Source of the DNA: an uncultured Spartobacteria bacterium
GTDB taxonomy: Bacteria > Verrucomicrobiota > Verrucomicrobiia > Chthoniobacterales > UBA6821
DNA: 42,536 bases
Assembly: GCA_903868795.1 (NCBI GenBank)
Contig: CAIPWR010000133.1
Coordinates: forward strand, 1-42,536
Reading direction: 5' to 3'
Position numbers and translations under genes: made by a program. How positions within the stretch are numbered: position 1 is the first letter of the stretch; each line of letters begins with the position of its first letter. A model generated the notes under the pieces. The model was not told the origin of the DNA. It saw only the letters and a list, made by a program, of their open reading frames with translations, and searched no databases. This document shows positions 1 through 34,433 of this stretch, one piece after another.

Positions 1-112
1 CCTTTGAGAAGGTTCCTATCCATGAACTACTTACAGAAACCGACTTCAAATCTTATATGCCTCAAGAAAATAACCAGTTGATGCTGTTAGACTTATAACC
101 GGACGCTAGTGA
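1..112 (+). mobile_element. Right end of an insertion sequence (partial)
   Basis: Positions 96-112 read TAACCGGACGCTAGTGA. The reverse complement matches 42396-42412 at 16 of 17 bases, as expected for the two inverted ends of one IS type. The stop codon of the upstream open frame (96-98) lies inside this repeat, which is common at the transposase end of IS elements. The element continues to the left of the window. The exact outer base and any target duplication cannot be determined here. Confidence 0.65.
3..98 (+). CDS. C-terminal end of a putative transposase (partial)
   Basis: An open frame enters from the left edge and ends with TAA at 96-98. It encodes 31 residues ending in NQLMLLDL. Endings of the type NQL-hydrophobic-D/F are frequent in IS4-like DDE transposases, but the piece is too short to assign a family. 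Its position, ending within the IS terminal repeat, is the main reason to call it a transposase. It could be another IS-borne gene. Confidence 0.45.
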   Translation, partial: FEKVPIHELLTETDFKSYMPQENNQLMLLDL

Positions 113-2409
113 TAAAAAACCAGAATTTCCGACAACTCGCAAAGATATTGCCCAGAAAAACAGCCTTTGTTGATTACTTTATATTCGATTCTTTTGGTAA
201 GTTCTCTCTTCAAAATCCGTATTACGGAGCTATAGTGATTACCGACTCTGGGAAACTTTCACTTATAAAGCTTGGAGAGTGTAAAAAAATAGATGCTTTA
301 GTAGAGACTTTCAGAAAAAACAATACGACTTTTGTAGGAAACGAAAAAGATCGTGAAATGTCAGAGGTGTGCAGTTCTTTATACAATGAACTAATCGCAC
401 CTCTAAAAACTTACATTGGTGATTGTAATGATTTAGTAATTTCACCTGAAGGGAAGCTCAATTTTGTTCCTTTTGCAGCGTTTGTAGATCATGAGGGTAA
501 GTTTGTCGTTGAAAAAACCGCCATTAACTATGTTTCTTCTGGAAGAGAATTGCTTAAAGACTTTGTCGTTTCTCCAAACAAAACAGTGACCATTGTCGCT
601 GATCCATTATTTAGCAAGTCTTCAACACCATCATCCCAAGAGCCAATTTTCCCGCAACTGCCAGGAACAGCGAAAGAAGCAGAATTAGTTCAGGGTGCTA
701 TGACTAACGGAAATTTTGCAGTGACACTCTTGGAGCAAACAAACGCATCGAAGAACGCTGTGTTGCAACTGGATTGCCCAAGAATATTGCATATCGCAAC
801 CCATGGATTTAATCTTCTCAATAATGATGCGATTACTGAGGGACATACTACACGTGGCATGAAGATAGTCGCGGGTGCTTCTGGTCATTTCATGACAAAT
901 ATCCCTGAAAAGCCAAATCCTATGTTTAGGACCGGATTAGCCTTTTATGGTGCCAACGATTCGTTTCGTGAGTGGAATAGTGGCTCATCCGGCAATGCGG
1001 ATGGAATTCTCACAGCAGCCGAAGTGCCATTAATAAATCTGAATGGAACTAGCCTTGTGGCCCTCAGTGCATGCCAAACTGGCGAGGGAGAAGCGGTAGG
1101 TGGAGAAGGAGTATTTGGCTTGAGGAGAGGCTTTCTGCAATCAGGTGCAAAAAACCTGCTGATGACATTATGGCCGATTGCTGATCAGGAGACCGTCGGC
1201 ATCATGTATGAATTCTATAAAAAAATTGCATTAAACGACGACGATCCATGTAATTCCTTGTCTGAAGTTCAACGTCAGTGGATGCCGAAACTTAAGTCTG
1301 AAAAAGGAATATGTTATGCCATCAATCGGGCTGCTCCTTTTATCATCTTTACTAAAGGTAAGATAACAACACAGGGATGCTCGGAATCATCAAGCGCCGT
1401 TGCTACATCCAAAGTCAATCCTATGTCTCAAGATGTCTTGGATGATTGTGTGCATAAAACGAAGGTCATCATGGATCAGAAAATCCAACAGAATGCTCCA
1501 TCGATTCAGGAACTCTGCACCGAGAAATTCAAAAAGCTTCTGAAAGCTGGCCTCTATGCGCCTCCGGGCGATCAGTGTGCTTTGGATGCTGATTTCCGGT
1601 ACGACACGCAGGACGATTACCCCAAAGTCAACTCGACCGGGCCTGCTGCTCAAAATGGGGAGAAAGTTTCGGTGCCTGTGGAGCTTCAGTTTGGAACGAA
1701 TGCCCCCTTTACCAAGACCTGGGTTTTTGCACAGGAGAACGGCACATGGCTGCTCGATGATGTCCTGACACAGAAGGGCGGTGAGGCTTCAGCAAAGAGC
1801 ATGGCCGATGATCTCTCCAAGCTGCCAAGCCCCCCAGAATCTGGCACTCAGGCAGTCCAATCATCCACTGCCACATCTCCTGCAGGATTAGGTGGTGGTA
1901 GCCCGGCCATTTTGGAATTCGCTGATGCCCTCGCTAAGGCAGATGCCGGCGATGCCTACGCTCAGGGAGTTGTTTCTATCTACTTCACAATGGGATACAA
2001 GACGCCAAAGGATGTAGCCAAGGGGCTATCCTATGCCATGAAGTCCGCGTCCCAAAAGAATCCTTTGGGCATTTATCAGGTAGGTATTCTAAGGGAGTTG
2101 GGAGCAGGAATGAAAAAAAGTAAGAAGGAGGGACGTGTTCTCATGGCCAAAGCCTTTGACGGACTCAATGCGATGTCCGGTGACCCCTATGCACTCTACG
2201 ATCTCGGAATGATGGCCCTAGAGGGCGTTGGTGTTGATCAGAATCCCAAGGAGGCCGCCCGCCTCTTTAAGGCGTCAGCCGATTTAGGCTACGCCCCAGC
2301 ACAGAGAATATACGCGAAGTTTCTCGAGGCGGGAGTAGGCGCGCCCAAAGATCTCGAAGCAGCAAGGCAGTATCAGAGCCAAAGCAGTGCGCAATGGTCA
2401 GAGCAATAA
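109..2409 (+). pseudogene. CHAT-domain protease with DUF3828-like and Sel1-repeat regions, 5' end cut off by an IS
   Basis: CHAT proteins are caspase-fold cysteine peptidases. The His-Cys pair is visible: His232 in HIATHGF and Cys322 in SACQTGEGE, followed by GVFGLRRGFLQSGA and LWPIAD, all typical of CHAT. The CHAT region covers about residues 1-415. A DUF3828-like region follows (about 445-555, DADFRYDTQDDYP to WLLDDV), then a Gly-rich linker and about four Sel1-like repeats (600-766). The frame begins inside the CHAT fold; full-length relatives carry more sequence, usually TPRs, before this point. The only start (GTG at 109) lies inside the IS terminal repeat and has no ribosome site, so I infer that the IS removed the 5' part. 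The rest is intact, so loss is recent or a shortened product is made. Bases 109-1500 are AT-rich, the remainder GC-richer. Confidence 0.75.
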
Positions 2410-2978: not shown

Positions 2979-4208
2979 ATGAAACCCCACCACCGCACCA
3001 TCCTCACCCCGCTGGCCCTCCTCGCCATCGCGGCCCTCACCATCACCACCACCCTCGCCACTCCGGTCACCGCCGAGGGGCGCACCGCCGGAGATTCCAC
3101 TGCCGCGCGTGAGCAGGCCCTTACCGATGCTCTGCGTGAGGCCGTGCGTCTCGGAGCCGGGGTGAACATCGCCAGCCAGAGCCAGGCCAGTAACTTCGCA
3201 CTCGATTACGACCGGGTCTTTGCCGCTGCCTTCGGCTATGTGAAGAGCTATAAGGTGATCGATTCAGGTATGGGCAAGGATGGGATCTACCATGTGAAGG
3301 TGGAGGCAGAGGTCTCCCCTGGAGATCCCAACATGAATAACACGATGGCTCTGAAGCAACTTGTGGCGCTGAAGGGTTCTCCACGCATCGCCCTCGACAT
3401 CCAGGAGAACATCACCGGCGTCCCCCCGAACTCCGGCTATGCCCAGGCATGGTTCGAGGAGGCGGCCAAGGATCTCCAGCTCAATATCGTCGATGTGGGT
3501 ATGGCCCGTAACCAGGAGATGAAACTCTCCCGCCGCGACGAGGCCCTCGGGAATACGAACTCCGCGAACTTCCGCAACAAGGACATCACCCAGAAGGCCG
3601 ACTTCATCATCCAGGGCAAGGTGACCGGCCGCTACGAGGGCCAGCAGAGCATGTACGGGGGGAATCCCCAGCACGTCTTCGGAATGAGCGCCGACCTCCG
3701 GGCCGTCCGCCCCGAGACTGGTGAAGTCGTCGCCTCCGCAACCATCCATCCGAATAACAACCTCGACAGCGACCAGGGCTCCCCCGAGATGGCCGCCAAA
3801 GACATCCTCTTCAAGCTCCTCACCGGCCGCGAGTCCAAGGGACAGCCCGGCGCCATCGGCCTCTTCCGCAAGATCTTCGCACGCTGGTCCTCCGAGCTCG
3901 ACCTCGGCCGCATGGTCCGCGTCGAGATCGTGAAGATCGACCAGTCCACCCTCACCGCCATGGAGGAGAAGCTCAAGGCCGACCCGCATATCAGCGGTGT
4001 CTGGCAGAGGGAGTTCGACGCCCAGGCCAGCACCTTCCTCGACCTCGAGACCCGGCTGAACTCCGCCGAACTGACCAAGTCAGTGACGGATGCCTCAGGA
4101 GGCGCCTACGGGATTGACCACGGAACCGAGAACTACCTCCTCTTCGTGAAGGGCGGATCTGGATCAACCGAGAAGAAGAGCATCTTCGGAAAAATGTTCG
4201 GGAATTGA
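2979..4208 (+). CDS. Secreted FlgT/LPP20/CsgG-like protein
   Basis: This is a 409-residue exported protein with a signal peptide (residues 1 to about 33, cleavage near VTA-EG). Residues 35-110 resemble the N-terminal domain of FlgT/LPP20 proteins: AREQALTDALREAVRLGAG, then a stretch ending in YHVKVEAEV. Residues 125-260 resemble the FlgT-middle/CsgG-like fold: an IALDI strand, then QKADFIIQGKV and an alternating region. No flagellar gene is in the window, so a flagellar role is unlikely. CsgG- and LPP20-like proteins are often found near exported caspase-family genes, and I infer a shared envelope process. There is no lipobox Cys, so it is probably periplasmic and not lipid-anchored. It is strongly GC-rich and spuriously open in other frames. 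Domain assignment is moderate. Confidence 0.7.
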   Translation: MKPHHRTILTPLALLAIAALTITTTLATPVTAEGRTAGDSTAAREQALTDALREAVRLGAGVNIASQSQASNFALDYDRVFAAAFGYVKSYKVIDSGMGKDGIYHVKVEAEVSPGDPNMNNTMALKQLVALKGSPRIALDIQENITGVPPNSGYAQAWFEEAAKDLQLNIVDVGMARNQEMKLSRRDEALGNTNSANFRNKDITQKADFIIQGKVTGRYEGQQSMYGGNPQHVFGMSADLRAVRPETGEVVASATIHPNNNLDSDQGSPEMAAKDILFKLLTGRESKGQPGAIGLFRKIFARWSSELDLGRMVRVEIVKIDQSTLTAMEEKLKADPHISGVWQREFDAQASTFLDLETRLNSAELTKSVTDASGGAYGIDHGTENYLLFVKGGSGSTEKKSIFGKMFGN

Positions 4209-4268
4209 GGCTTCGCGATTAGCCACATAAAGCACAAGCACAACCTCCCTATTCGCTAAAAAACTTTT

Positions 4269-4457
4269 ATGAAATATATAATCACATCAAAAATCTCGGG
4301 GAATAAATATCTGATAGACACTGAGCAAAGCGAAATTCATTCATCTCTCGCCAGATTTATCGAACAATCTACAGATTGCATTTTTACAAAGAGGGAATTA
4401 AAGGAGGACATAGACGCAGGAGAAATTTTCAGAATCTCAACAGAAAAAATGAAATGA
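4269..4457 (+). CDS. Small protein upstream of the HEPN-type gene
   Basis: This encodes 62 residues and no signal peptide. It reads as a compact alpha/beta protein beginning MKYIITSKISGNKYLIDT. The stop TGA (4455-4457) overlaps the next start in an ATGA, giving strong translational coupling to the HEPN-type gene. The size and coupling are those of an antitoxin or regulator placed before its toxin, but no DNA-binding motif is visible. The sequence is AT-rich compared with the gene before it. Function unknown; partner role is inferred. Confidence 0.55.
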   Translation: MKYIITSKISGNKYLIDTEQSEIHSSLARFIEQSTDCIFTKRELKEDIDAGEIFRISTEKMK

Positions 4458-4924
4458 CAAGAAAATCTACCCCCTCAAATGCGAAAAAAGGAAATGTGGT
4501 TAAACATGACCACTATAAAGAGGCCTTTGCTCGAATTAATGATGCAATCGAGCTCGGATTCTTTATTGAAGCAATAGCAATTGAGGAGGGCATAATTTCA
4601 GATCGCTTAACATCACACCTTTCGTATTTCGGGAAATTACCCAAATCCAAGTTCCCAACTCTAAAAAAGCTCACTGAAGCTTGGGAAAAAATTGCTGGAA
4701 CAGATATTGAGAAAAAACTAATAGCAAAAATCGATAAATGGAGAGATGCCAGAAACCATGCAGTGCATGGGATTGTCAAATGTTCCGATGAAACAAAAAA
4801 CGATAGTGTTAATGCATTTTTAAAGGAGGCAAAAGATTCGGCCGCTAAAGGTCTAGAAATAGTGAATGAATTAAAAAAATGGCATGGCGCAGAAGTTCGA
4901 AAATCAAAAAAATGCTCAAAATAA
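4454..4924 (+). CDS. HEPN-like protein (candidate RNase)
   Basis: This is a 156-residue, nearly all-helical cytoplasmic protein. Residues near 100 read WRDARNHAVHG, containing R-N-x-x-x-H, the R-X4-6-H signature of HEPN-domain RNases. Just before it lies the helix-rich FIEAIAIEEGIISDRL, which I associate with a widespread uncharacterised family with this motif. I chose ATG 4454, which overlaps the upstream stop as ATGA, over a longer frame from 4376 whose extra residues are an out-of-frame reading of the upstream gene. The 3' end overlaps the start of the exported caspase gene by 13 bases, so the small protein, the HEPN protein and the caspase protein are probably translated from one message. 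RNase activity is inferred from the motif only. Confidence 0.65.
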   Translation: MTRKSTPSNAKKGNVVKHDHYKEAFARINDAIELGFFIEAIAIEEGIISDRLTSHLSYFGKLPKSKFPTLKKLTEAWEKIAGTDIEKKLIAKIDKWRDARNHAVHGIVKCSDETKNDSVNAFLKEAKDSAAKGLEIVNELKKWHGAEVRKSKKCSK

Positions 4925-7900
4925 TCACTTTTGCATTTTTAATCGGGGGAGGAATCTGTTCAGCGAACAGCCAAGTTCCTACCCAATGGCAATGCCAACA
5001 GGCCGATGCCCAGCTCAATCAGGTCTACCAGCAGCTCAGGGGAACTCTGAACGATGCCCAGAAGCAGCAGTTAAAGCTGGAGCAGAGGGCATGGATAAAA
5101 GAAAGGGATAATCATATAAGAAATAATCCAAACGATGCGGAGGGAGCATTTCATTACGCCACGGAAAAAAGGATTAATTATCTTAAAAATAAGATAGAAG
5201 GAATCCAAGGTGATAGGGCTGAAAGCGCAAATGATTTGAAGGTCTCAGTTGTTCCTCAAAACTTTCCTACAGATCAAGGGTGTGTGAGCGAAAATGAAGA
5301 CCTGTTAATTGTAGGATGTGATACACAGAATTGGACTTCTTATGCATTAATATTTGATAAAAAAAGCAACTTGTTACTTAAAAAAGCCCAACTTGGTCAA
5401 TTTGAGCTGAGAGAGTTGTATCTACCAAATAATGCAAAATGGTTCGTATGCAGAACTTGGGATAAAAATGACGGAGACGCTATCAGAATATTTTCAATCA
5501 GATCAACCAAGGTTGTAGATTCGCAAAACGATGACATTGGAGATATATACAACCAAAAGCTAGATAGCGAAAATTCAGGACACATATATATTTCAGATAG
5601 CGGAGATTTAATCACCTATGGGAAATATGCTGGAATAGGACAAAAATCTCCGCTTTGGTACTCCCGAACCATTGGGGCGGATGGTCAGATTGGCGCAGAA
5701 GAGCCTCTCAATTTGAGATACAAACCAACAACGAAACCTCTTTTTTCTGAGTTATTTCAGAGACAAGATATTAGGGAACTGCTTCAGCAAAAATTACAAT
5801 ATTCAGAAGAATCAACAGATAAACTTAATCAACTAAAAATGGAGGATAATTCAGTAATTAATATTTCGACGAATGGGGTTTGTAATAAATTGGATTTAAT
5901 TTCAGCTAAAATTACTTGCTCTAAAAAAACAGCTAATGATCATTTAACTTGGATATATGATAATGATACCATGCAAATTAGTAGCAACATTCGTGCAGAT
6001 AGTGGTGTTGTTAAATATACAGCTAAACGAGGAGGGATCGTTATGCAAGAGGTTTCCATTGATGAGGATTATATAGTAAAAGATATCAATATTAATCAAC
6101 TTAATCTAAAAGGTATAAAGATAAATAATGATTCAAATCAACAGACAAATAAATGTTTTGGGGAATATGAAAGCGTCTTATGTATTTCAAATACCCAAAG
6201 CGGAGTAGTCTTTCCAATTTCATGTATCCGGGATTCTTATTCTAAGTGGTCGGACTTAAAATATTATCCAGATAAAGGACTCGTATCTACGTGCTGTCAC
6301 ACTATTCGGTACAATTGTGCTTCAGATGTTATTCCCAGTCTGCAACTCAGGAAAGTTAAAGATGGTTCTTTGGTTTTTAAAACAGATGATTGGGATTCCA
6401 TCTGCTTTTCGGGTGATAAAATGTACTGCTCTTGGGGAGATAGATTTGGTCAGCGATCCGGGCTCTCAATATTTAATACTACATCCTATAAATCAGAGAA
6501 ATTCTTCCCAGATGTCATAGGCATGGACCCTATAGTATCCGATGGGAATAGGATTGCTGGTATATGGAAGGAGGAGCCTACGGTGATTCGTTTATATGAT
6601 CTTAAATCGGGCAATCCGCTCTGCTCAGTTACTCCAGTAAGTAAGACCGCCCTTCTGGTATATACTCCTGATAATTATTACATGTCTGGTTTTGGCAAAT
6701 CTGGGACAGTCGCCTTCAGATTCAAAAATCGCGCATACCCATTCGAGCAGTTCGATCTCCGCCTGAACCGTCCCGATATCGTTCTGGAGCGATTGGGGGC
6801 CCCGAAGGAGGCTATTGAGACGGCAAAATCCCTCCGTGAGAAACGCCTGAAGCGGATGGGAGTCACCGAGGAAATGCTCAAGCCGGATTTCCATCTCCCT
6901 GAGCTTCAGATTGTGGGTGAGGTCCCTGCCACGACTCCCAAGGATCAGCTCGATCTCCAGATCAAGGCCAGCGATGACAAATACCCCCTCGATCGCCTCC
7001 GGGTCTACGTGAACAACGTCCCGGTCAATGGCCGCGACGGGGAACTCCTCCGAGACCAAAAAACTCAATCTCTCGAGAAGCCCATCCCGATCAAGCTGGC
7101 TGCCGGTCGTAACAAGATCCAGGTCTCTGTCCTCAACAGCGCTGGTGCGGAATCTCTCTATGCCAATGCCGAGGTGAACTGCACGGTTGAGCGCCCCAAG
7201 CCGAAGCTCTACGCCGTGGCTCTAGGAGTCTCCCAGTACGCCCGCCCCGAGTGGTGCCTCAAATACGCCGCCAAGGATGCCACCGACCTTATTGGCAAGC
7301 TCAAGGCCAAGTCCGGATCCTCCTACAGCGAGGTAAAGCCCCTTCTCCTCACCGACAAGGAGGTAACCAAGGAAAGCGCCGCCAAGATCAAGGAGTTCCT
7401 CTCCGGGGCCACCATCGACGATACGGTCCTCATCTTCATGGCCGGTCACGGCCTCCTGGATGACAAATACGATTACTACTTCGGTACTTCAGATATTGAC
7501 CCGGCTAAGCCCTCGGAGCGCGGCATGCCCTATGAGGCGATCGACAACATCCTCGCCGAAGTTCCATCTCTGAAAAAAGCCCTCCTCATGGACACCTGCC
7601 ATGCCGGAGAACTGGATGACGACGAGAAGAAGGAACTGGCAGCCACCGATGGATCGGCAATCCCTTCCACTTCCCCTGATACTTCTACGAACAGTTCCCC
7701 CAATCCATCGCCCCTCGCAGGCAAAGTCGCCATGCGCGCCATCGGCACCCGAGGGATGAGCGTCAAAGCCATCGAAGGGGCGAAGGGAAAGAGCGACTGG
7801 TACGAGAAGCTCCAGGACATGTTTGTCGATCTTCGCCGGGGTAGCGGGGCCACAGTGATCTCCTCATCCCAAGGGGCCGAATACGCCTTCGAGAGCAGCG

Positions 7901-8103
7901 AGCAGTCCAACGGCCTCTTCACTTACTCGCTCATGGAGGCCCTCGACGGGAAAGCCACGCCGAATAAGGAACACCAGATCACCATCAGCAGTGTCGGCGA
8001 CTACGTCAAAAAACGCGTCCAAGATCTCACCAAGGGCAAACAAAACCCCAACCTCCGTGGAGTTAATCTTGAAGAGGACTTCACGCTCAGCGCAGCAAAA
8101 TGA
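4912..8103 (+). CDS. Exported LprI / beta-propeller / caspase-domain protein (type 1)
   Basis: This is a 1063-residue protein. It has a signal peptide (MLKIITFAFLIGGGICSANS), an LprI-like (DUF1311) region at about 25-95 (LNQVYQQLRGTL, then RAWIKERD), and a long beta-rich, propeller-like region with WD/PQQ-type spacing (100-610). A helical linker (620-670), an Ig-like domain (675-760) and a caspase (peptidase C14) domain (765-1063) follow. The catalytic His846 is in FMAGHGLLD and Cys896 in LLMDTCHAGE. A Ser/Pro-rich low-complexity insert (about 910-935) separates the two caspase subunit regions, as in metacaspases. Start 4912 keeps the signal peptide; the earlier GTG-like start at 4879 would bury it. 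Bases to about 6720 are AT-rich (16 of 60 G+C at 6121-6180), then GC-rich (34 of 60 at 7381-7440). The last 73 codons recur at 9450-9671 and the last 31 at 14020-14115. Substrate unknown. Confidence 0.85.
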   Translation: MLKIITFAFLIGGGICSANSQVPTQWQCQQADAQLNQVYQQLRGTLNDAQKQQLKLEQRAWIKERDNHIRNNPNDAEGAFHYATEKRINYLKNKIEGIQGDRAESANDLKVSVVPQNFPTDQGCVSENEDLLIVGCDTQNWTSYALIFDKKSNLLLKKAQLGQFELRELYLPNNAKWFVCRTWDKNDGDAIRIFSIRSTKVVDSQNDDIGDIYNQKLDSENSGHIYISDSGDLITYGKYAGIGQKSPLWYSRTIGADGQIGAEEPLNLRYKPTTKPLFSELFQRQDIRELLQQKLQYSEESTDKLNQLKMEDNSVINISTNGVCNKLDLISAKITCSKKTANDHLTWIYDNDTMQISSNIRADSGVVKYTAKRGGIVMQEVSIDEDYIVKDININQLNLKGIKINNDSNQQTNKCFGEYESVLCISNTQSGVVFPISCIRDSYSKWSDLKYYPDKGLVSTCCHTIRYNCASDVIPSLQLRKVKDGSLVFKTDDWDSICFSGDKMYCSWGDRFGQRSGLSIFNTTSYKSEKFFPDVIGMDPIVSDGNRIAGIWKEEPTVIRLYDLKSGNPLCSVTPVSKTALLVYTPDNYYMSGFGKSGTVAFRFKNRAYPFEQFDLRLNRPDIVLERLGAPKEAIETAKSLREKRLKRMGVTEEMLKPDFHLPELQIVGEVPATTPKDQLDLQIKASDDKYPLDRLRVYVNNVPVNGRDGELLRDQKTQSLEKPIPIKLAAGRNKIQVSVLNSAGAESLYANAEVNCTVERPKPKLYAVALGVSQYARPEWCLKYAAKDATDLIGKLKAKSGSSYSEVKPLLLTDKEVTKESAAKIKEFLSGATIDDTVLIFMAGHGLLDDKYDYYFGTSDIDPAKPSERGMPYEAIDNILAEVPSLKKALLMDTCHAGELDDDEKKELAATDGSAIPSTSPDTSTNSSPNPSPLAGKVAMRAIGTRGMSVKAIEGAKGKSDWYEKLQDMFVDLRRGSGATVISSSQGAEYAFESSEQSNGLFTYSLMEALDGKATPNKEHQITISSVGDYVKKRVQDLTKGKQNPNLRGVNLEEDFTLSAAK

Positions 8104-8108
8104 CTTTT

Positions 8109-9242
8109 TTAACTGACAGCCTGTCGCAGCTCGGAGATCGGAAGGAACTCGATCTTCAGACCTCCCATCTGGCGCTCGTAGGCCGTCATGACATGGGGGC
8201 AGAGCACGAGATTTCGCCCGTCGGGATAGGCCTCGCGGAAGATGCGCAGGGCATTCGTATCAAAGGCCTCGGCATTCCACTTGCACTCGATAGCATCGAC
8301 TCGGCCACCAGCTCTGGGAACCACAAAGTCCACCTCCCTGCCCGAGGCATCGCGCCAGAAGTGAACCTTCTGCACAGGAGTCGCCATCAGAGTGTCGAGT
8401 ACGAGGTGTTCCCAGAGGAGTCCGCAGTCTTCGGGGCGGAGCTTGTCCCAGCCACGGGCATGACAGACAAATCCGGTGTCGAATCCATAGAGCTTTGGCC
8501 GAGAGATAAGTTCCCTGCGACCGCCACCGGAGAAGGGTCGCAGGAGATGGGCGACGTGGGTTGCCTGCAGGACCTCCATCCAGTTCATGACCGTCGGACG
8601 ACTTACCCCGGCGTGTTTCGCGAGCGAAGTGACCTCCAGAAGCCCTCCACTCTGACGAAGGACCAATTCCACCAGCAGGAGAAATGCACTGCGCTTCTCC
8701 ACTCGGAACATTTCCTGAACGTCCCGAGCGAAATAGGAGTCGAGCCACTCGGCGTAGAATTCCCAGTTTGGCTCTTTCGCAAGAAGGGCAGGAGGGAGGC
8801 CACCGCGCAGGAGTCGGTCGTTCAGATCCGTCACGCCAAAGGCAGGCAATTCCTCTGCCAGCACAGGGGCCAGTACCACAGAGCGCTTTCTGCCGGTCAG
8901 CGTGTCCCGGAACTTTCGAGTGGCTGCAAGTGTGGAGGAACCCGTTGCCAGCACACGGAGGTGGGGAAAGACATCTGTGGCGATCTTCAGCACGCGGCTT
9001 GGGTCGGAAAGCTGATGAACCTCATCGAGGATGACCAAGGGCTTCTTCAGCGATCGGAAGAAGGCCTCCGGATCTGCCAACCTCGCCACATCATGGGGAA
9101 GATCGCAGTTCAGGAACTCCGCATCGCCAAGTTCCCTGGACAAGACCGTCTTTCCGGCGCGGCGCACGCCGGCCAGCCAGACCAGAGGCACCTGAGACCA
9201 GGCTCGATCCAAGCGACTCTTCCAGAAGGGGCGATCGATCAT
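8109..9242 (-). CDS. AAA_14 / DUF4143-family ATPase
   Basis: This is a 377-residue P-loop ATPase. Walker A is GVRRAGKT near residue 22 and Walker B is LVILDEVHQL near 80. The following ATGSSTLAATR has the sensor position typical of AAA_14. A winged-helix-like part (about 215-260) precedes the DUF4143 region. That region contains REVDFV and AIECKW, the acidic and E-x-K residues of its PD-(D/E)xK-like fold. Members are common, often solitary and of poorly known role. I chose ATG 9242 (MIDRPFWK), the usual family start; longer readings run through the upstream inverted repeat. The gene is antisense to its neighbours and lies between an intact caspase tail and a duplicate of that tail, so it looks like an inserted cassette. 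The opposite strand is open for 523 codons but encodes nothing recognisable. Confidence 0.85.
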   Translation of the reverse strand: MIDRPFWKSRLDRAWSQVPLVWLAGVRRAGKTVLSRELGDAEFLNCDLPHDVARLADPEAFFRSLKKPLVILDEVHQLSDPSRVLKIATDVFPHLRVLATGSSTLAATRKFRDTLTGRKRSVVLAPVLAEELPAFGVTDLNDRLLRGGLPPALLAKEPNWEFYAEWLDSYFARDVQEMFRVEKRSAFLLLVELVLRQSGGLLEVTSLAKHAGVSRPTVMNWMEVLQATHVAHLLRPFSGGGRRELISRPKLYGFDTGFVCHARGWDKLRPEDCGLLWEHLVLDTLMATPVQKVHFWRDASGREVDFVVPRAGGRVDAIECKWNAEAFDTNALRIFREAYPDGRNLVLCPHVMTAYERQMGGLKIEFLPISELRQAVS

Positions 9243-9253
9243 AGGGAGGTACA

Positions 9254-9281
9254 CTTTACATTGAAACGCATGAATGTAAAG
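9254..9281. promoter_or_regulatory. Perfect inverted repeat before the AAA_14 gene, probable operator
   Basis: CTTTACATT (9254-9262) is repeated as AATGTAAAG (9273-9281), with 10 bases between. On the minus strand a TATAAT (9296-9291) lies just upstream, so the repeat would fall at the transcription start of the ATPase gene, 12 bases before its ATG. A good -35 box is not visible. The layout suggests repression, perhaps autoregulation, but the binding protein is unknown. Confidence 0.5.
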
Positions 9282-9369
9282 CGTGGTTTCATTATAATGA
9301 GGGGGCAATCCCGTTCCCGAGAGTATCGCACAGAGCCCTTCGTGACCATTTCGAATTTGGGAGCGCCGA

Positions 9370-9413
9370 ACTCCGAGCTGTGGGAACAGCGGAGTAGCCT
9401 TTGCATGGCAAAG
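9370..9413. repeat. Two adjacent hairpins, intergenic repeat
   Basis: The first hairpin (9370-9395) pairs ACTCCG and CTGT with ACAG and CGGAGT around a GGGA tetraloop, with a two-base bulge. The second (9399-9413) pairs CTTTGC with GCAAAG around ATG. The CTTTGC/GCAAAG hairpin core recurs at 39214-39229. The pair lies just before the orphan caspase tail at 9450 and looks like a dispersed REP-like element. Confidence 0.4.
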
Positions 9414-9449
9414 CCCGGAGGGCGAGGCGAGCGGGAGCGAGTGAGGCAA

Positions 9450-9671
9450 TATGCCTTCGAGAGTAGTGAGCAGTCCAACGGCCTCTTCACCTACGCCCTC
9501 ATGGAAGCCCTCGATGGCAAAGCCACCCCCAACAAAGATGGCCAAAGCACCATCAGCAGCATCGGCGACTACGTCAAAAAACGAGTCCAAGATCTCACCA
9601 AGGGAAAACAAAACCCAAACCTCCGAGGTGTGAACCTCGAGGAAGACTTCACGCTCGGAACGGCCAAGTAA
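9450..9671 (+). pseudogene. Orphan caspase tail 2 (remnant of a type 1 caspase gene)
   Basis: The 73 codons from YAFESSEQSNGLFTY to the stop are 66 of 73 identical to the C-terminal end of the intact caspase protein (7882-8103). Sequence before 9450 is not related to caspase coding sequence, so only the tail remains. There is no ribosome site or suitable start. Many differences from tail 1 are synonymous, which means it evolved under constraint before being orphaned. The stop at 9671 is 5 bases before the next caspase gene, so it may once have been the upstream gene of the same operon. Confidence 0.8.
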
Positions 9672-9676
9672 CTATC

Positions 9677-12600
9677 ATGAAGAAAATAATCCCCTGTATT
9701 CTCCTGATCGGATGCCTTCCCTTGTGGAGAGCCAATGCCCAGCAGAGTGTCGGACCTGCAGAAGTTCAACAAGCGGAGAACCAGCTCACGCAAGTCTATC
9801 AACAACTACGGGGAACGCTTGATGAGGCTAATCAAAAGAAACTTAAGGCTTCAGAAGTGCAGTGGATCAAGCAGAAGGAGACCGCCATCGCTTCGAGTCC
9901 AAATCCTGATGCCACACACTACCAACTGGTGATGCAGCGGGTGGCCACCTTGCAGGAGGTGATGAACAGAATGGGTTCCCAGCAACCTCCTCCCCAGCTG
10001 AGACAGGCGACTCCACCATCTCAAATACCTCCATCCCAAACTACCGAAGGTGGAATCACATCTCAACAGCCCGATCGGATTGAGGGTATTAACAGTGAAA
10101 AGGAAAAATGGGCCTATGAATTTCTGGATAACAAAACTTCTGGAAACCCATCCTTTCTAGACAGTCGGTCTGGAGCGGTTGTTTTTCAGAACTCTGAGTG
10201 GATTGTTAAGGCAACCGAGTCTTCAGGCAATGTAGGCAAGATAAAAACCGATCTGTTTTTTTATGATACTCGAACACTAAAACTCATCTCAACTGCAAGA
10301 ATTCCAAACAAAATTATTAAAGTCGGAAGGGTTGGTTCGGGCACATCGTTTTATGTGATCACGATTACGCCCATGAAATACAGATATGATGATGCACCAC
10401 TTAATATCTGTTTAATAGATCCAAAAAACCGACAAATAGATCGCATTAAACTGGTGGAAGATGACTATTGGTTTGCCCTTAATAACCCAATCCTGGTTTC
10501 AGCTGAAGGAAATACAATTGAGATCCGGGTTGATGAGACTGCCGAACACACAGGACAACTAAATGTATCCAGAAGTGGATATCTTTCAGGGAACCCTAAG
10601 AATTCATTTTTCAAAGATATCAAAATTACTTTTAAGCCAGGAGCTAAAGAGTACTATTCAAAAAATCCTGCTAAAGTTGTTTATCCCAATAACAACTCAT
10701 CTTCGAGAGAGGCTATTATTCCCTCGCAAATGGAATTCGATCAGCAAGCAAAAAATGAACAGGCTTCGCTGGACTCCTTGGGTATTAATGCAACAGGTGA
10801 TATTGATGGTTCCGAAAGGTCTCTCAAGAAAGCAAATGCTGCTGTTGTATCCAGCGGATCCTTATCGGGTATCCATGTGATTAGTGCTGACGAAAACGGC
10901 TCCTTACATGATATTAATCTAGCTTGCCTCACGGCCAGAAGTATCAAGTTGGCTGCGTCCAGAATCGAATTACCTGGAATCTTTTGCGATGGAACATGTT
11001 ACGGCGTGCAATCCAACACTGTTATTATTCATTCGGATGTAACAAACTTTATAACAATATTTACCAACAGCTATCTGACATTTGATTCCTCCAATGCCTA
11101 CGCTCTACCAGAACCACCAGACCACATTTGGTGGAAGCGGCATGTTGTCGATAATATCAGCACCTATTCAATTCAGTCTTTGAATCAAAATGGAGATAAA
11201 AAGGCCATTCAGTTACCTGATCTTCAGACATCATCTGTCAGTAAAAACATTGAAGGAGATATCAGTGTTGCCGTTTATCCAGAAGAACGCCTGATTTATG
11301 GTAGCTGGCTTGAATCCGAACATGATCTTTTGCATGTTTTCGCTCGTTTTTCGCTTTCGGATGGGCGGCAGATCGGACCACTGATCAAATCTGAATGCGG
11401 AAAAACTCCCACGGTCACCTGTATTCGTGATGGCATTGCGCCGAAAGGGTGGCATCTCCCCACCTATTCTCCCACGGGATCTACAGGAGGGTTTGAGTAC
11501 TCGATTGCGCTTCAGAATGACGCAGAGAATTCCACTCTAGATTTGGTTCAAGGTATGCCCGATCTGGCATCGCCTCTTGAAGTCCGCTTTAAGAAGGATC
11601 GTATAATTCAACTGATCTACTCCTGTGCCGGGGTTACTAAACTTGCTGAATATACCCCTGAAGGAAAGCTTAATGAGACGCTTGCCGAATGGCCTTCGCC
11701 TCCTCAGGAGGGAAAGCCTCTTCTGCTTAGCGAAAGGAACCTAGTCTTTATCCCCAAGGCAGGAGGCTATGATGCCTATCGGATCTTTGGAGAAGGGAAA
11801 CCGGAGAAGGCTTTCGAGATCTACTTCCGGGGTAGCAGTGACTATGTAATCCTTCTTCCCAACGGTTTCTATGCAGGATCTCCCGGATGTGAGCGTCTCA
11901 TCACTCTGCAGGCTGGGGATGGGAAAGTTGATGCTTCCGCACTTGCCCCATGGCGAAATAGGCCCGCAGAAGTCATCAAAGCACTCGGAGGCGACCCAAA
12001 GAATGCGGACATCCTCGCAAAGGTTACAGAACGCTGGCTCAAGAGAGCGAAATTCGACCTCTCTATGCCTGAACCCAAGGCCTCAGAGATCCCGAAGGTG
12101 GAGGTCAATCAGATGCCGCCCTTATGGGCACAAGGAGCGGGAATAACCTTCCCAATCGAGGTGACCGCTGGTGCATCGCCTCTGACAGAAGTGACCGTCC
12201 GGGTGAACGGGATCCCTCAGCAGGCGATCAGCGGATCCGAGCTGAACGTCCCTGTAGGGGGCAAGGGGACCGTTCAGGGTTCCGTGACTCTGGCCCAAGG
12301 GCAGAACTGGATCGAGGTGACGGCCACCGATGAGAAGGGGAGGGTGAGTAATCAAGCCCACTTCCGAAGCATTCTGCCGGAGGCTCCCGAGAAACCGAAG
12401 CGCTACATCGTGGCGATGGGATGCTCGGAATACGACCGACCGGAACTCAATCTCCAATATGCGGCCAAGGATGCCGGGGATGTCCTTAAAACCTTCCAAG
12501 AAGCAGGAGGGCGTGACTGCAAGACCCTGCTCCTGACCAATAAGGAGGTGGGGCCAGAAGCTCTGGAGAAGATCAAAGCCTTCGTGGGTGAGAGCAAAGA

Positions 12601-13480
12601 GAGCGATGAAGTGATCCTCTTCTGCGCTGGGCACGGCCTGCTCGACGAACATCTCGACTATGTCTATGCGGGTCACCAGATCGATCCGGAGCATCCAGGC
12701 GACACAGGCATTCATCTCGATGCCCTGCTTGATGCCATCAAGGCGGGCAAGTCGCTCAAGCGTCTTGTGCTCATGGACACCTGTCAGTCGGGGAGCGTAG
12801 GCGAAAAGGAGGAGATGAAGCTGGCATCGGCCTCTACAGAACTTCCCCACGGAGTCCGTGCCGTTAAGTCCCGAGCGCTGAAAGTGGTCGGCGTCTCGCC
12901 GATGACGGGAGGAGATCAGCAACGCTTCATCGAGGAGATGTTCCTCCTGCCTGGCCAGCACCGGGGGATCAATATCATCGGAGCATCAGGAGGCGCGGAA
13001 TATGCCATGGAGTCCGATAAGTGGAACAACGGTGTCTTCACTTCCGCCCTCATCGAGGCTCTCCGTGACAAGAAAGCCGACATGGATCATCGAGGTAGGA
13101 TTTCAGTGAGCGATCTAAAGACCTATTTGGGACAGCGGGTGCCTGAGCTCACCGGAGGTGCTCAGAAACCTAGCGTGGTAGCCTTCGAGCAGGATCAGGA
13201 CTTCGATCTCGTGGGCGATATGCCTCCGATTCCCGAATCTGTGAAGAAACAAGGGGTCGCCACTACATCCGAGGCGCCATTACCTGTGACTCCGTTGTCA
13301 GTTGCCAGTGAATCAACCCAAATGACTCCACCCAACCTGGGTGCTCAGTTTGTGAACTCACTGGGACAGAAGTTCGTTCCAATACCCGGAACGCCTGCCT
13401 ATTTCTGTATCTGGGATACACGGGTGAGTGACTATGGGCAATTTGTGAAAGAGACCGGTAGGGCATGGAAGCCGGCTTGA
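9677..13480 (+). CDS. Exported LprI / propeller / caspase protein (type 2), ending at an in-frame TGA within an FGE-like domain
   Basis: This encodes 1267 residues. It has a signal peptide (MKKIIPCILLIGCLPLWRAN), an LprI-like region (about 30-95), a Gln/Pro-rich linker (98-125), an AT-rich beta-rich propeller-like region (130-780), an Ig-like domain (820-905) and a caspase domain (915-1180). Catalytic His986 is in FCAGHGLLDE and Cys1036 in LMDTCQSG. The caspase end of this protein is distinct from the repeated tails. A linker then leads to the start of an FGE/SUMF1-type domain (FVNSLGQKFVPIPG, about 1224 on), which stops at TGA 13478-13480. The same frame continues the domain to 14017. Without the stop the protein would be 1446 residues. 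The stop sits where family members usually have Gly in a G-F-P-Q-type segment, so GGA to TGA is the simplest change. The protease part is unaffected. Confidence 0.8.
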   Translation: MKKIIPCILLIGCLPLWRANAQQSVGPAEVQQAENQLTQVYQQLRGTLDEANQKKLKASEVQWIKQKETAIASSPNPDATHYQLVMQRVATLQEVMNRMGSQQPPPQLRQATPPSQIPPSQTTEGGITSQQPDRIEGINSEKEKWAYEFLDNKTSGNPSFLDSRSGAVVFQNSEWIVKATESSGNVGKIKTDLFFYDTRTLKLISTARIPNKIIKVGRVGSGTSFYVITITPMKYRYDDAPLNICLIDPKNRQIDRIKLVEDDYWFALNNPILVSAEGNTIEIRVDETAEHTGQLNVSRSGYLSGNPKNSFFKDIKITFKPGAKEYYSKNPAKVVYPNNNSSSREAIIPSQMEFDQQAKNEQASLDSLGINATGDIDGSERSLKKANAAVVSSGSLSGIHVISADENGSLHDINLACLTARSIKLAASRIELPGIFCDGTCYGVQSNTVIIHSDVTNFITIFTNSYLTFDSSNAYALPEPPDHIWWKRHVVDNISTYSIQSLNQNGDKKAIQLPDLQTSSVSKNIEGDISVAVYPEERLIYGSWLESEHDLLHVFARFSLSDGRQIGPLIKSECGKTPTVTCIRDGIAPKGWHLPTYSPTGSTGGFEYSIALQNDAENSTLDLVQGMPDLASPLEVRFKKDRIIQLIYSCAGVTKLAEYTPEGKLNETLAEWPSPPQEGKPLLLSERNLVFIPKAGGYDAYRIFGEGKPEKAFEIYFRGSSDYVILLPNGFYAGSPGCERLITLQAGDGKVDASALAPWRNRPAEVIKALGGDPKNADILAKVTERWLKRAKFDLSMPEPKASEIPKVEVNQMPPLWAQGAGITFPIEVTAGASPLTEVTVRVNGIPQQAISGSELNVPVGGKGTVQGSVTLAQGQNWIEVTATDEKGRVSNQAHFRSILPEAPEKPKRYIVAMGCSEYDRPELNLQYAAKDAGDVLKTFQEAGGRDCKTLLLTNKEVGPEALEKIKAFVGESKESDEVILFCAGHGLLDEHLDYVYAGHQIDPEHPGDTGIHLDALLDAIKAGKSLKRLVLMDTCQSGSVGEKEEMKLASASTELPHGVRAVKSRALKVVGVSPMTGGDQQRFIEEMFLLPGQHRGINIIGASGGAEYAMESDKWNNGVFTSALIEALRDKKADMDHRGRISVSDLKTYLGQRVPELTGGAQKPSVVAFEQDQDFDLVGDMPPIPESVKKQGVATTSEAPLPVTPLSVASESTQMTPPNLGAQFVNSLGQKFVPIPGTPAYFCIWDTRVSDYGQFVKETGRAWKPA

Positions 13481-14017
13481 TTCCCCCAGAAGCCAGATCA
13501 CCCCGCCGTGAGGATCAATTACAACGACGCAACGGCTTTCTGCGAATGGCTGACGCAAAAGGAACATGCCTCAGGCAAACTTTCTCAAGATTGTGAGTAC
13601 AGACTTCCGATGGATCTGGAGTGGAGTGCCGCCGCTGGGTTAGGGCCAGAGGCTCCAGGGCTGCCAAGGGATAGGGATGGTGCAATTCCAAACTGCTACG
13701 CCTGGGGAACCAACTGGCCACCACCGCCAGGAGCCGGCAACTTCGATCCGAAGCTTAAGACTGACAAGTTCCCCTACACCTCGCCGGTTGGCAGCTTTGC
13801 CCCAAATAAATACGGCCTCTACGACATCAGCGGTAATGTCTTCCAGTGGATCAAGGAGGACTTTGATGAAACGGGTCTCGGATTCCTCCGAGGCGGCTCT
13901 TGGCCTGATGAAGCTGAAGAAAATCTCAATCTGTCGGGACGCTGCAAGGAGAGCAAAGAAAACGGCTACAAGTGCTACGGCTTCCGCTGCGCGATCGCAC
14001 CAATTGCACAGAAATGA
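13481..14017 (+). pseudogene. C-terminal part of the FGE-like domain, in frame after the TGA
   Basis: The frame continues directly after the TGA with FPQKPDHPAVRINYNDATAF and carries most of a formylglycine-generating-enzyme/SUMF1-type fold: FCEWL, YRLPMDLEW, KYGLYDISGNVFQW, FLRGGSW and YGFRCA. The N-terminal piece of the domain is encoded before the stop, so neither half would fold alone. The catalytic cysteine pattern of true FGEs is not clear, and many such domains are binding or lectin-type folds. Possible states are a nonsense mutation, read-through, a sequencing error or restart at GTG 13508. Many genes here use TGA as stop, so a changed code is unlikely. Confidence 0.75.
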
Positions 14018-14115
14018 TGAAAAAACGGTTCCAGGATCTGACGAAAGGCAAACAAAACCCCAACCTACGCTGCGTCAACCTTGAGGAGGACTTTGTTTTG
14101 GGAACAGCCAAGTGA
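14017..14115 (+). pseudogene. Orphan caspase tail 3
   Basis: An ATG overlapping the FGE-frame stop (ATGATGA) opens a 32-codon frame. Its last 31 residues match the type 1 caspase tail; 28 of 31 equal tail 2 (QDLTKGKQNPNLR, NLEEDF and LGTAK are kept). It is shorter than tail 2, and its nucleotides differ mainly at third positions, so it is an older or independent copy. It is not the end of the type 2 caspase domain, which has its own different end. Whether the 32-residue peptide is translated by coupling is unknown. Confidence 0.7.
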
Positions 14116-14146
14116 CACGGCACTACTTTTCGGTTATCATTTTATC

Positions 14147-14446
14147 ATGGATTTGAACGACGTACCGATGTCTTCGGATTCCCTGTCGAGGGTGGCGCGG
14201 CGGCTTTTCTGGTGGATGTCACCGACGGAGGCGCTACGCGACAGAAGCCGTTTCCTGGCACAGGTCATGGCGCTGGGGACATGGGAGGATGTGGCCACGG
14301 TGCAGGCGGAGTGTCCTGTGGAGGAGTGGCGCGATGCACTCCGTAGTGCGTCCCCAGGGGTCATCGATCCAAGAAGTTGGCATTTCTGGCACGTGAGGTT
14401 CGGGATGACTCCGATCCCTCCGATGCCGGTGCGCCATTTGGGATGA
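14147..14446 (+). CDS. Putative antitoxin of an AbiE-like pair
   Basis: This is a 99-residue protein. Its C-terminal half contains GTWEDVATV, then SPGVIDPRSWHFWHVRFG and PPMPVR. I recognise this pattern from short proteins encoded immediately before AbiEii-type nucleotidyltransferases. I start at ATG 14147; the longer frame from 14081 runs through orphan caspase tail 3. Its stop overlaps the toxin start in ATGA (14443-14446). No helix-turn-helix is certain, so antitoxin action is inferred from gene order and size. AbiE-type antitoxins often repress their own promoter, but no operator repeat is evident. Confidence 0.65.
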   Translation: MDLNDVPMSSDSLSRVARRLFWWMSPTEALRDRSRFLAQVMALGTWEDVATVQAECPVEEWRDALRSASPGVIDPRSWHFWHVRFGMTPIPPMPVRHLG

Positions 14447-15120
14447 ACGGAGAGAGCCTCGCCATCAGCATGGATCTTCATCTTTCGACTCTACCCAAGT
14501 CCCAGCAGACGCTCTGGGGGGAACTGGATCAGGTGCCGACCGATTTTGTACTCTACGGCGGGACGGCGTTGGCTCTGCGCCTCGGTCACAGAATCTCGGT
14601 CGACTTCGACTTCTTCAACGCATCGCCTTTCGAGCCCGATGAGTTGATCGCCCGGATACCCTTCGCCAAGGGATCCGAAATTCTCCAGAGCAGTGCCAAT
14701 GCTCTGACGATCCTGGTGGATCGCGGGGCACCGGTGAAGGTCTCGTTCTTCGGCGGGCTTGGATTCGGCCGCATGGAGGATCCTCAGTCCGCCGCCGATA
14801 ATAATGTGGCGATCGCCTCGGTGATCGATGTCTTCGCCAGTAAGCTCAAGACGATCCTTCAGCGTTCGGAGGCAAAGGACTACATCGATATCGCGGCGAT
14901 CCTCGCTTCGGGAGTGTCCCTTGAGAAGGGACTCGGCGCGGCCCGAGCTCTCTATGGTGAGGGGATGAACACGCTCCTCCCTCTCAAGGCACTCTGCTAC
15001 TTCGGGGATGGGGATCTGGAGACTCTCAGCCTAGAGGTTCGGGAGCAACTCCTTGCCGCGGTCGCCGGGTTGGGAGAGATCCCCGGTATGGTACGCCGTT
15101 CAGGAAAATTGATCGGCTGA
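14443..15120 (+). CDS. AbiEii/AbiGii-family nucleotidyltransferase toxin
   Basis: This is a 225-residue protein. Motifs of the family are YGGTALALRLGHR (about 33-45) followed by SVDFDFF (47-53), the GG-x-A and D-x-D core that binds nucleotide and metal, then VKVSFF and SVIDVFASKLKTILQR with AKDYIDIAAIL further on. Family members act as type IV-like toxins that modify RNA, for instance by adding nucleotides to tRNA, and can block phage. ATG 14443 overlaps the antitoxin stop and is preferred to a longer frame (14377) inside the antitoxin gene. The protein looks full length with both aspartates kept, so it is probably active. The specific target cannot be read from sequence. Confidence 0.85.
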   Translation: MNGESLAISMDLHLSTLPKSQQTLWGELDQVPTDFVLYGGTALALRLGHRISVDFDFFNASPFEPDELIARIPFAKGSEILQSSANALTILVDRGAPVKVSFFGGLGFGRMEDPQSAADNNVAIASVIDVFASKLKTILQRSEAKDYIDIAAILASGVSLEKGLGAARALYGEGMNTLLPLKALCYFGDGDLETLSLEVREQLLAAVAGLGEIPGMVRRSGKLIG

Positions 15121-15170
15121 TGATACCCGTCTTGTGCTCCGAGGGGGGGATGTTCTGGGTGGTTATGCTC

Positions 15171-15199
15171 CGGAAAGGCTACAACGGCGGCCTTTTCCG
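15171..15199. terminator. Hairpin after the toxin gene, possible terminator
   Basis: CGGAAAGGC (15171-15179) can pair with GGCCTTTTCCG (15189-15199) with one bulged base. It lies 50 bases after the toxin stop and 50 bases before the next start. It has no following T run, so rho-independent termination would be weak. Confidence 0.3.
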
Positions 15200-15249
15200 A
15201 AAGTAGAGAATTGACCCTAACTGACTAAAAACCAATATCTAAGGCTCAT

Positions 15250-15705
15250 ATGAAAACCAAAGGCGCAAATATCGACATCCTCAAGCAATTCGCAGCTCTC
15301 GAGAAAAAGGCTTCTAAGCAGGTTCTCTCCGCAAAGGCCGCTATCGAGAAGAAGATCGCCAAGGAGGTAGCCTCCGTTCACAAGAAGTACGCTAAGGAGC
15401 TCAAGCAGATCGACTCCATGCTTTCCCGCTTCGGTCTTTCAGCCAAAGCGCCGAAAGCGCCCAAGGCTGCCAAGGCCGCTCCTGTGGGAAAGCGCACCCG
15501 CCGCTCTCTCCCCAAAATCTCCGATGAGGAAATCAAAGCCCAGCTCTCTAAGATCCTCTCTGGAGGTAAAAAAGTCTCCTCAGCCGTGATTTTCAAAGAA
15601 GTCGGTCTGGCACGTCCCCGCTTCACCGCCTTCCTCAAGGCCAATAATGGCTTCCTCCACATCGAAGGCAACAAGCGCAGCACCACCTACTCGCTGAAGG
15701 GTTAA
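15250..15705 (+). CDS. Basic coiled-coil protein, putative nucleoid/DNA-binding
   Basis: This is a 151-residue protein, very rich in Lys and Ala. Residues 10-58 form a predicted coiled coil. Residues 60-85 are an Ala/Pro/Lys linker ending in GKRTRRSLPK. Residues 90-151 form a small helical domain with a beta end (KVSSAVIFKEVGLARPRFTA to TTYSLKG), winged-helix-like in look. The layout of oligomerising coil, basic linker and small C-terminal domain resembles H-NS-type and other xenogeneic silencers, although no family sequence motif is present. AAGG lies 7 bases before ATG, an unusually good ribosome site for this window. Its place within the accessory region fits a silencer or regulator; this is inference. 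Confidence 0.6.
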   Translation: MKTKGANIDILKQFAALEKKASKQVLSAKAAIEKKIAKEVASVHKKYAKELKQIDSMLSRFGLSAKAPKAPKAAKAAPVGKRTRRSLPKISDEEIKAQLSKILSGGKKVSSAVIFKEVGLARPRFTAFLKANNGFLHIEGNKRSTTYSLKG

Positions 15706-34011: not shown

Positions 34012-34391
34012 AGAAAAAGCTCTCCCCTCACTGGAAAAAGGACTCCGACAAGCACGACTATCAAGCCGCAGCAAACTTCCTAACCCTTCTTATGGAGCCA
34101 GAGCGGGCAAAGGAAATCGCCTCACGATTCAAAAAGACCTCCGTTTCTACCTTCTTGGTCAAGGACCTCCTCAGGGCTAGCCGACTCCAACTCCTGCCCA
34201 CCGAAAATTACCATGTCAAAAAAGACCTCAAAAAGGTCAAGGAGGGTAGCCTTCTTTCACCCGTTCTGCTGGTCCGAGGTGAGATCGAGAGTGATCGCCC
34301 TCTAATGATTGCTGATGGCTACCACCGCGTCTGTGCGAGTTACTATCTCGATGAGAACGCGGAGATCCCTTGCCACCTCGTGACATTGTAG
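34008..34391 (+). CDS. Small ParB/sulfiredoxin-fold-like protein
   Basis: This is a 127-residue basic protein. The segment from LLSPVLLVRGE to LMIADGYHRVCASYYL resembles the ParB/Srx catalytic-fold core, in which D/N-G-x-H-R binds nucleotide. No DNA-binding helix-turn-helix or partition partner is seen, so a chromosome-segregation role is unlikely. Coupling by ATGA to a SulP transporter is notable, but its meaning is not clear. I do not know a characterised homologue. Confidence 0.6.
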   Translation: MKKKLSPHWKKDSDKHDYQAAANFLTLLMEPERAKEIASRFKKTSVSTFLVKDLLRASRLQLLPTENYHVKKDLKKVKEGSLLSPVLLVRGEIESDRPLMIADGYHRVCASYYLDENAEIPCHLVTL

Positions 34392-34433
34392 ATTGAACAG
34401 CTCTGCGGTATCGGAAATCTCAATTCAAACTTT

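Follow-up and report, generated by a model that had tools for sequence, protein, structure and literature searches.

Comparison of the type 1 caspase genes in the window, the 42,536-nt contig stretch analysed here, with those of related genomes indicated that recombination at a conserved linker has very probably put new sensor-like halves in the place of old ones, ahead of an otherwise constant exported paracaspase. These genes are mosaics in which the borders of composition and of homology coincide, and the pattern recurs in several genomes. The composition breaks correspond to junctions between DNA of different histories, with a clear join in the type 1 gene. A sequence-only reading had proposed, from base composition, that the histories of the sensor and effector halves are separate; this proposal finds support in homology, which is independent of composition.

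The features of the cluster are listed in Table 1, in which W_c1 is the type 1 caspase gene of the window. The first gene, which encodes a CHAT protease, may start past the contig edge. The main genome used for comparison, G010, belongs to the same genus and possesses an array of three type 1 genes (G010a, G010b and G010c) and one type 2 gene. The conserved secreted gene upstream of W_c1 shares 95% identity with its G010 counterpart, and at the place of the HEPN-like ORF G010 has small ORFs unrelated to that of the window. In addition, between W_c1 and the first orphan copy of its 3' end, an AAA_14/DUF4143 ATPase gene (8109-9611, minus strand; PADLOC candidate PDC-S01, 1e-52) runs in the opposite direction. 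An AbiEii-like nucleotidyltransferase gene (14377-15120, plus strand) is located immediately 3' of the array, within the block that shares 94% identity with G010.

Table 1. Coordinates of the caspase gene cluster and its parts in the window
Feature	Position (nt)	Strand	Remarks
CHAT protease part of first gene	109-1458	+	Pfam CHAT 5.9e-53; AT-rich, GC3 ~0.35
CHAT gene tail, DUF3828-like and Sel1	1459-2409	+	GC3 ~0.55
Conserved secreted gene, upstream flank of variable segment	2979-4208	+	FlgT_N/CsgG-like, weak matches
AT-rich variable segment 1	4211-4970	.	blastn gap 4210-4971; equivalent place in G010 without DNA similarity
Small HEPN-like ORF, within variable segment 1	4448-4924	+	GC3 0.30; weak HEPN match; PADLOC CARF_HEPN 2e-5
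Type 1 caspase gene W_c1	4879-8103	+	likely start 4912; signal peptide, LprI head, variable half, linker/Ig-like, caspase
LprI head of W_c1	4971-5109	+	conserved patch 5' of variable half; 83% DNA identity to one G010 paralogue
Variable, sensor-like half of W_c1	5110-6735	+	AT-rich, GC3 ~0.30; all-beta in low-confidence models
Constant half of W_c1	6736-8103	+	linker motif YPFEQFDLRLNRPDIV, Ig-like region, caspase 7210-8082, His857/Cys907
Orphan copy, final 226 nt of type 1 caspase gene	9448-9673	+	84% identity
Type 2 caspase gene	9677-13480	+	LprI head, AT-rich middle, GC-richer caspase part; homology jump at 11606
FGE-sulfatase-like continuation of type 2 gene past in-frame stop	13508-14017	+	
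Second orphan end of type 1 caspase gene	14020-14112	+	downstream edge of array

Both caspase genes encode a signal-peptide-like start, found by a heuristic from which export of the two proteins is predicted, followed by an LprI head and a C-terminal C14 caspase domain (45.4 and 37.1 bits against the curated Pfam cut-off of 21.4). The putative catalytic dyad of the caspase half, His857 in an AGHG motif and Cys907 in a DTCHAG motif, is invariant across 19 aligned members. Structure prediction yielded a confident model for the C-terminal half of W_c1, which matches the MALT1 paracaspase with an E-value of 3.2e-8, and also other caspases. Based on the C14 match, the dyad and the predicted fold, W_c1 and its kin are putative caspase-like peptidases of the bacterial ortho-/paracaspase type. 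The front half of W_c1 was modelled as all-beta at low confidence (pLDDT 36, <40 in that part), so that a beta-propeller in this half is only a likelihood. A search for WD40 gave no match in W_c1, and the front half of G010a has a match to PQQ_2, a propeller family, just over the cut-off. Pfam detected no NACHT or NB-ARC NTPase domain in the caspase proteins, which places them outside the STAND/NLR class.

Base composition and codon usage are not uniform along the cluster, and all three genes contain a break, as the sequence-only reading had maintained; its G+C counts, 16 of 60 at 6121-6180 and 34 of 60 at 7381-7440, were exact on recount. The break that it had placed near 6720 in the type 1 gene was recovered at codon ~611 (nt 6709; support codons 600-627), where GC3 rises from 0.33 to 0.71 with a likelihood gain of 80, compared to a maximum of 6.2 in 100 codon shuffles. 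As background we sampled 446 kb from the same genome, with a G+C of 0.519, a mean GC3 of 0.61 and a non-ORF G+C of 0.44. Among its 185 ORFs of at least 300 aa, a single real one exceeded a gain of 31 (48) and none reached 80, the one value above 80 being a masked stretch that was discounted. A strong break (GC3 0.46 to 0.80, gain 48) was seen in the same genome at locus L060 (G000:C40, 1-3120, minus strand), in a gene that by eye encodes a papain-like protease joined to an autotransporter-like region with repeats. A two-break model fits W_c1 better still, with breaks at codons 72 and 610 and a GC3 of 0.58 in the LprI head, 0.30 in the middle and 0.71 in the caspase half. These two breaks lie next to codons 77 and 619, where the homology has its edges.

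The breaks of the other two genes are less sharp. A change near 11560 in the type 2 gene had been claimed; it is real (GC3 0.42 to 0.64, gain 31) but gradual, and the claimed position is slightly early, with support at codons 664-804 (nt ~11666-12086) and close homology from 11606. The break near 1500 in the CHAT gene held up (GC3 0.35 to 0.55, nt ~1459-1546, gain 14.5) and coincides with the Pfam CHAT/DUF3828-like junction. The codon usage of the AT-rich parts of the type 1 and CHAT genes fits worse than that of 98.5% of sampled host genes, and that of the type 1 caspase half is typical of the host. Among 53 relatives outside the clade (Bacteroidota, Nitrospirota, Ignavibacteria and others), the difference in GC3 between the two halves ranges from -0.06 to 0.09 with a mean of ~0.015, compared to 0.36-0.38 in W_c1, G030a and G113a. 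As these outside relatives are almost without it, the G+C step belongs to the loci of this clade and does not come with the architecture as such. In G029, G030b and L128, composition marks the join only weakly.

Pairwise comparison located the loss of homology at the linker. The caspase half of W_c1 is about 91-95% identical to those of the G010 type 1 paralogues, and no similarity was found between the respective front halves save the LprI patch in one paralogue. Among eight genes from five genomes, the caspase halves are 57-95% identical, and the matching front halves share no detectable similarity except for the LprI head and last-blade traces. Set against the G010 paralogues, W_c1 climbs in DNA identity from 0.22-0.51 to 0.78-0.87 over 15 codons at the YPxEQFDLRLNRPDIV motif, with the alignment edge at nt 6735-6736; per 15 codons, the W_c1/G010 and G010/G010 pairs stand at 0.22-0.42 directly ahead of this motif and at 0.78-0.87 directly past it. 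In all 11 tested pairs the identity reaches 0.67-0.91 within 15 codons at this motif, and it is 0.22-0.42 over the 15 codons ahead in 10 of them. Moreover, the similarity of W_c1 to nearly all relatives begins at nt 6734-6743, and in most genes of the clade the homology border falls within or adjoins the support interval of the composition break. The exception is G030a, whose join is displaced ~35-45 codons into the linker; close similarity starts at window nt 6841, and the composition of G030a changes at the shifted join as well. Such a join would be the pattern expected from recombination between diverged homologues inside a conserved stretch.

The length of the front halves varies (~395-1170 residues), as does the head, which is LprI, Sel1 or none recognised. 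Genome G113 carries two copies with 90% identical Sel1 heads, 90% identical caspase parts and differing middles, and in the G030 copies the LprI heads appear as a repeated element. At locus L082 (G030:C70, 12409-14880, minus strand), in a genome of another family, the caspase part is 92% identical to that of the window, whereas that of the second G030 copy is just 61% identical; these two values suggest that the constant half may also move horizontally.

Between conserved syntenic flanks, the window and G010 lack homology over the variable DNA. The upstream flank (3056-4210) and the downstream flank (14020-15704) share 91% and 94% DNA identity, respectively. Between them, blastn found no G010 counterpart for 4211-4970 and 5110-6735; the parts with counterparts are the LprI patch (4971-5109, 83%) and the caspase half (6736-8081, 84%). 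The small AT-rich ORF upstream was probably part of the exchange as well, with the LprI head staying conserved. Orphan caspase 3' ends of ~75-226 nt border inserted modules, at 9448-9673 and 14020-14112 in the window and at 34333-34424 and 54898-54993 in G010:C15, and the type 2/FGE module lies between orphan ends in both genomes, at different places. Several array members are interrupted: the type 2 gene of the window by an in-frame TGA (13478-13480) ahead of the FGE part, a caspase gene of G010:C15 by a TAA at ~49640, and a caspase copy of G113:C3, at ~3000, by a split across two ORFs. The arrays may therefore hold silent copies.

Orthologous sensors might alternatively have diverged past recognition under diversifying selection, the constant half being kept homogeneous by constraint and the G+C step reflecting relaxed codon usage. 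A yardstick is provided by G010c and L128, a locus on a contig binned as Akkermansiaceae, which have a front half in common (28-50% identity across 600 residues, E 1e-113) and caspase halves about 80% identical (74-87%). The lower identity of this front half is what fast divergence would produce, yet it remains recognisable over its 600 residues, whereas pairs with closer caspase halves show nothing: W_c1 and G010c are ~90% identical in the caspase half, and their front halves are unrecognisable beyond LprI. Thus, front halves evolve fast, yet too slowly to erase homology at the distance between W_c1 and G010c, and the loss of homology is unlikely to be mere fast evolution. The varying lengths and head domains, the sharp borders at one motif and the relatives elsewhere without a G+C step likewise speak against divergence, which we regard as unlikely. 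Outside the clade, the front halves of three relatives each retrieve 47-50 others of 64. The disagreement between per-domain trees that the sequence-only reading expected was borne out in direction but not in significance: the caspase-half tree favours incongruence with the front half, and the grouping of G010c with L128 is not significantly rejected (AU p 0.14 for protein and 0.08 for DNA). As most front halves cannot be aligned, the tree test is just suggestive.

Synonymous ages are unequal along the type 2 gene. Between the window and G010, the middle of this gene is 33-60% identical, with synonymous sites saturated in residues 1-600; residues 701-900 are 94-98% identical with a dS of 0.14-0.16, the dS is higher again thereafter, and the first ~130 and ~275 residues are unmatched. 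On these comparisons, the type 2 gene is best read as an older, layered mosaic of several ages with one replaced head, its middle part being old and homologous to the G010 counterpart. The CHAT part of the first gene is related to CHAT parts in G009, G029 and G113, and its Sel1 tail shares ~50% identity with the one that follows a G010 caspase gene. Separate histories, and with them the proposed separate exchange of halves, are well supported for the type 1 gene and supported for the CHAT gene; for the type 2 gene the proposal needs qualification, as an exchange of whole halves gives way there to a mosaic of ages. At locus L020 (G009:C295, 5390-7937, minus strand), a CHAT gene stands directly beside the remnant of a caspase gene 3' end, which suggests that the caspase was replaced or lost.

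The low-dS tract of the type 2 gene suggests a conversion-like event, and the GC3 of the constant half (0.71) exceeds the genome mean of 0.61. Both would fit an explanation in which GC-biased gene conversion raised the G+C of the tandem caspase halves and the unconverted fronts drifted to AT without import. We consider it very improbable, however: the GC3 of the variable half, 0.30, is below even the sampled non-ORF G+C of 0.44, the G010 copies share 85-87% DNA identity with each other versus 84-86% with the copy of the window, monophyly of the three G010 copies is rejected in the caspase-half tree (AU p 0.007), and the missing homology of the fronts would be left unexplained. Contig chimerism in metagenome assemblies, conceivable for a fragmented draft genome of 169 contigs, is extremely unlikely, because the frame is open through the join in W_c1, G010b, G010c, G113a and L128 (1074-1548 codons) and the join sits at the same motif in independent assemblies, one of them on a 188-kb contig.

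For the replacement of front halves, we propose a model in which the constant effector is the exported paracaspase, comprising the linker, the Ig-like region and the caspase, and the replaceable module in front of it is beta-rich and probably ligand-sensing. New front halves, together with the small upstream ORF, would derive from divergent, AT-rich genes built on the same general plan, and homologous recombination would join them at stretches that both partners conserve. The 3' join would use the YPxEQFDLRLNRPDIV linker and the 5' join, in some copies, the conserved LprI or Sel1 head, with tandem copies and orphan 3' ends adding further homology. We infer homologous recombination from the positions of the joins and from the repeated elements, namely the LprI/Sel1 heads and the orphan ends; no recombinase responsible for the exchange was identified.

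The front half of W_c1 is absent from the 212 other genomes of its order (213 in all), several of which possess the caspase half, and in the phylum it has only weak matches of 77-126 residues. The front half of G010b has no other match in the order, and that of G010a has widespread matches, at low scores, only to the first ~130 residues and to some stretches of propeller. Viral contigs contained no relative of the caspase half. As the order and phylum searches found no donor of the AT-rich front half, its import from AT-rich genomes is a matter of inference. Judging from the architecture, the variable half might sense a signal and activate the caspase, in a role in conflict (immune) or in envelope surveillance. 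The exchange itself may be an active process. More tentatively, the cluster could be a dedicated sensor-exchange locus, in which the 5' heads, the linker and the orphan 3' ends serve as a recombination scaffold and cells keep swapping sensors and small partner genes onto one exported paracaspase. This possibility is doubtful at present; if true, it would let bacteria build up their receptor repertoire combinatorially, with no recourse to NTPase switches or DGRs.

Caspase homologues are common among prokaryotes, and the signals they sense are mostly unknown. The exchanged half marks the probable target of selection and thereby points to the sensor, and the natural domain swaps could be used to ask if the protease is under the control of the front half. 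Trees built from full-length proteins of this kind should be read with caution, as they blend two histories. We found no account of front-half replacement at this linker in the literature searched, most subscription literature lying outside the search.

Bacterial caspases fused to WD40, Sel1 and FGE domains are known (PMC3501461). The present proteins resemble exported propeller-caspases (orthocaspases/metacaspases) in the signal peptide, the EQFDLRLNRPDIV linker motif, the C14 caspase and a front that may be propeller-like. However, the front halves of such proteins outside the clade retrieve each other readily and show no G+C step, whereas those of this clade are replaced. Segmentally variable genes are defined by a variable stretch of >70 residues beside conserved parts (PMC387263), and the caspase genes likewise combine a variable region of at least 70 residues with conserved regions in one gene. 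The study of segmentally variable genes reported no general G+C difference and argued against repeated fusions (PMC387263); by contrast, the caspase genes display a strong G+C contrast, and replacement is supported.

Variable sensors coupled to protease effectors have also been described in DGR systems, which diversify the sensors (PMC10907252), and in diversifying conflict systems (PMC7159879), and the caspase genes share this combination. Unlike in DGR systems, the differences among them involve whole modules, not point hypermutation. DGR diversification was rejected here, as a search with RVT_1 found no reverse transcriptase in the window or G010; in G000, the genome of the window, RVT_1 matches lie on other contigs only, C107 and C115.

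The closest parallel in composition is found in Rhs genes, which combine a GC-rich conserved core and an AT-rich variable extension in one gene (PMC7259588), and in polymorphic toxins, which undergo cassette recombination from module arrays, sometimes with an accompanying gene (PMC3482391). The caspase genes share with them the GC-rich conserved and AT-rich variable parts, the module arrays and, probably, the cassette-type recombination. No Rhs/YD repeats were matched by Pfam in the caspase genes, and no immunity gene was recognised. Compared to polymorphic toxins, with a constant N-terminal trafficking part and a variable C-terminal toxin, the orientation is reversed: the caspase genes are their mirror image, with a variable N-terminal sensor-like part and a constant C-terminal protease. 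Mosaic G+C structure would thereby extend to a putative receptor family, with Rhs-like diversification on the recognition side.
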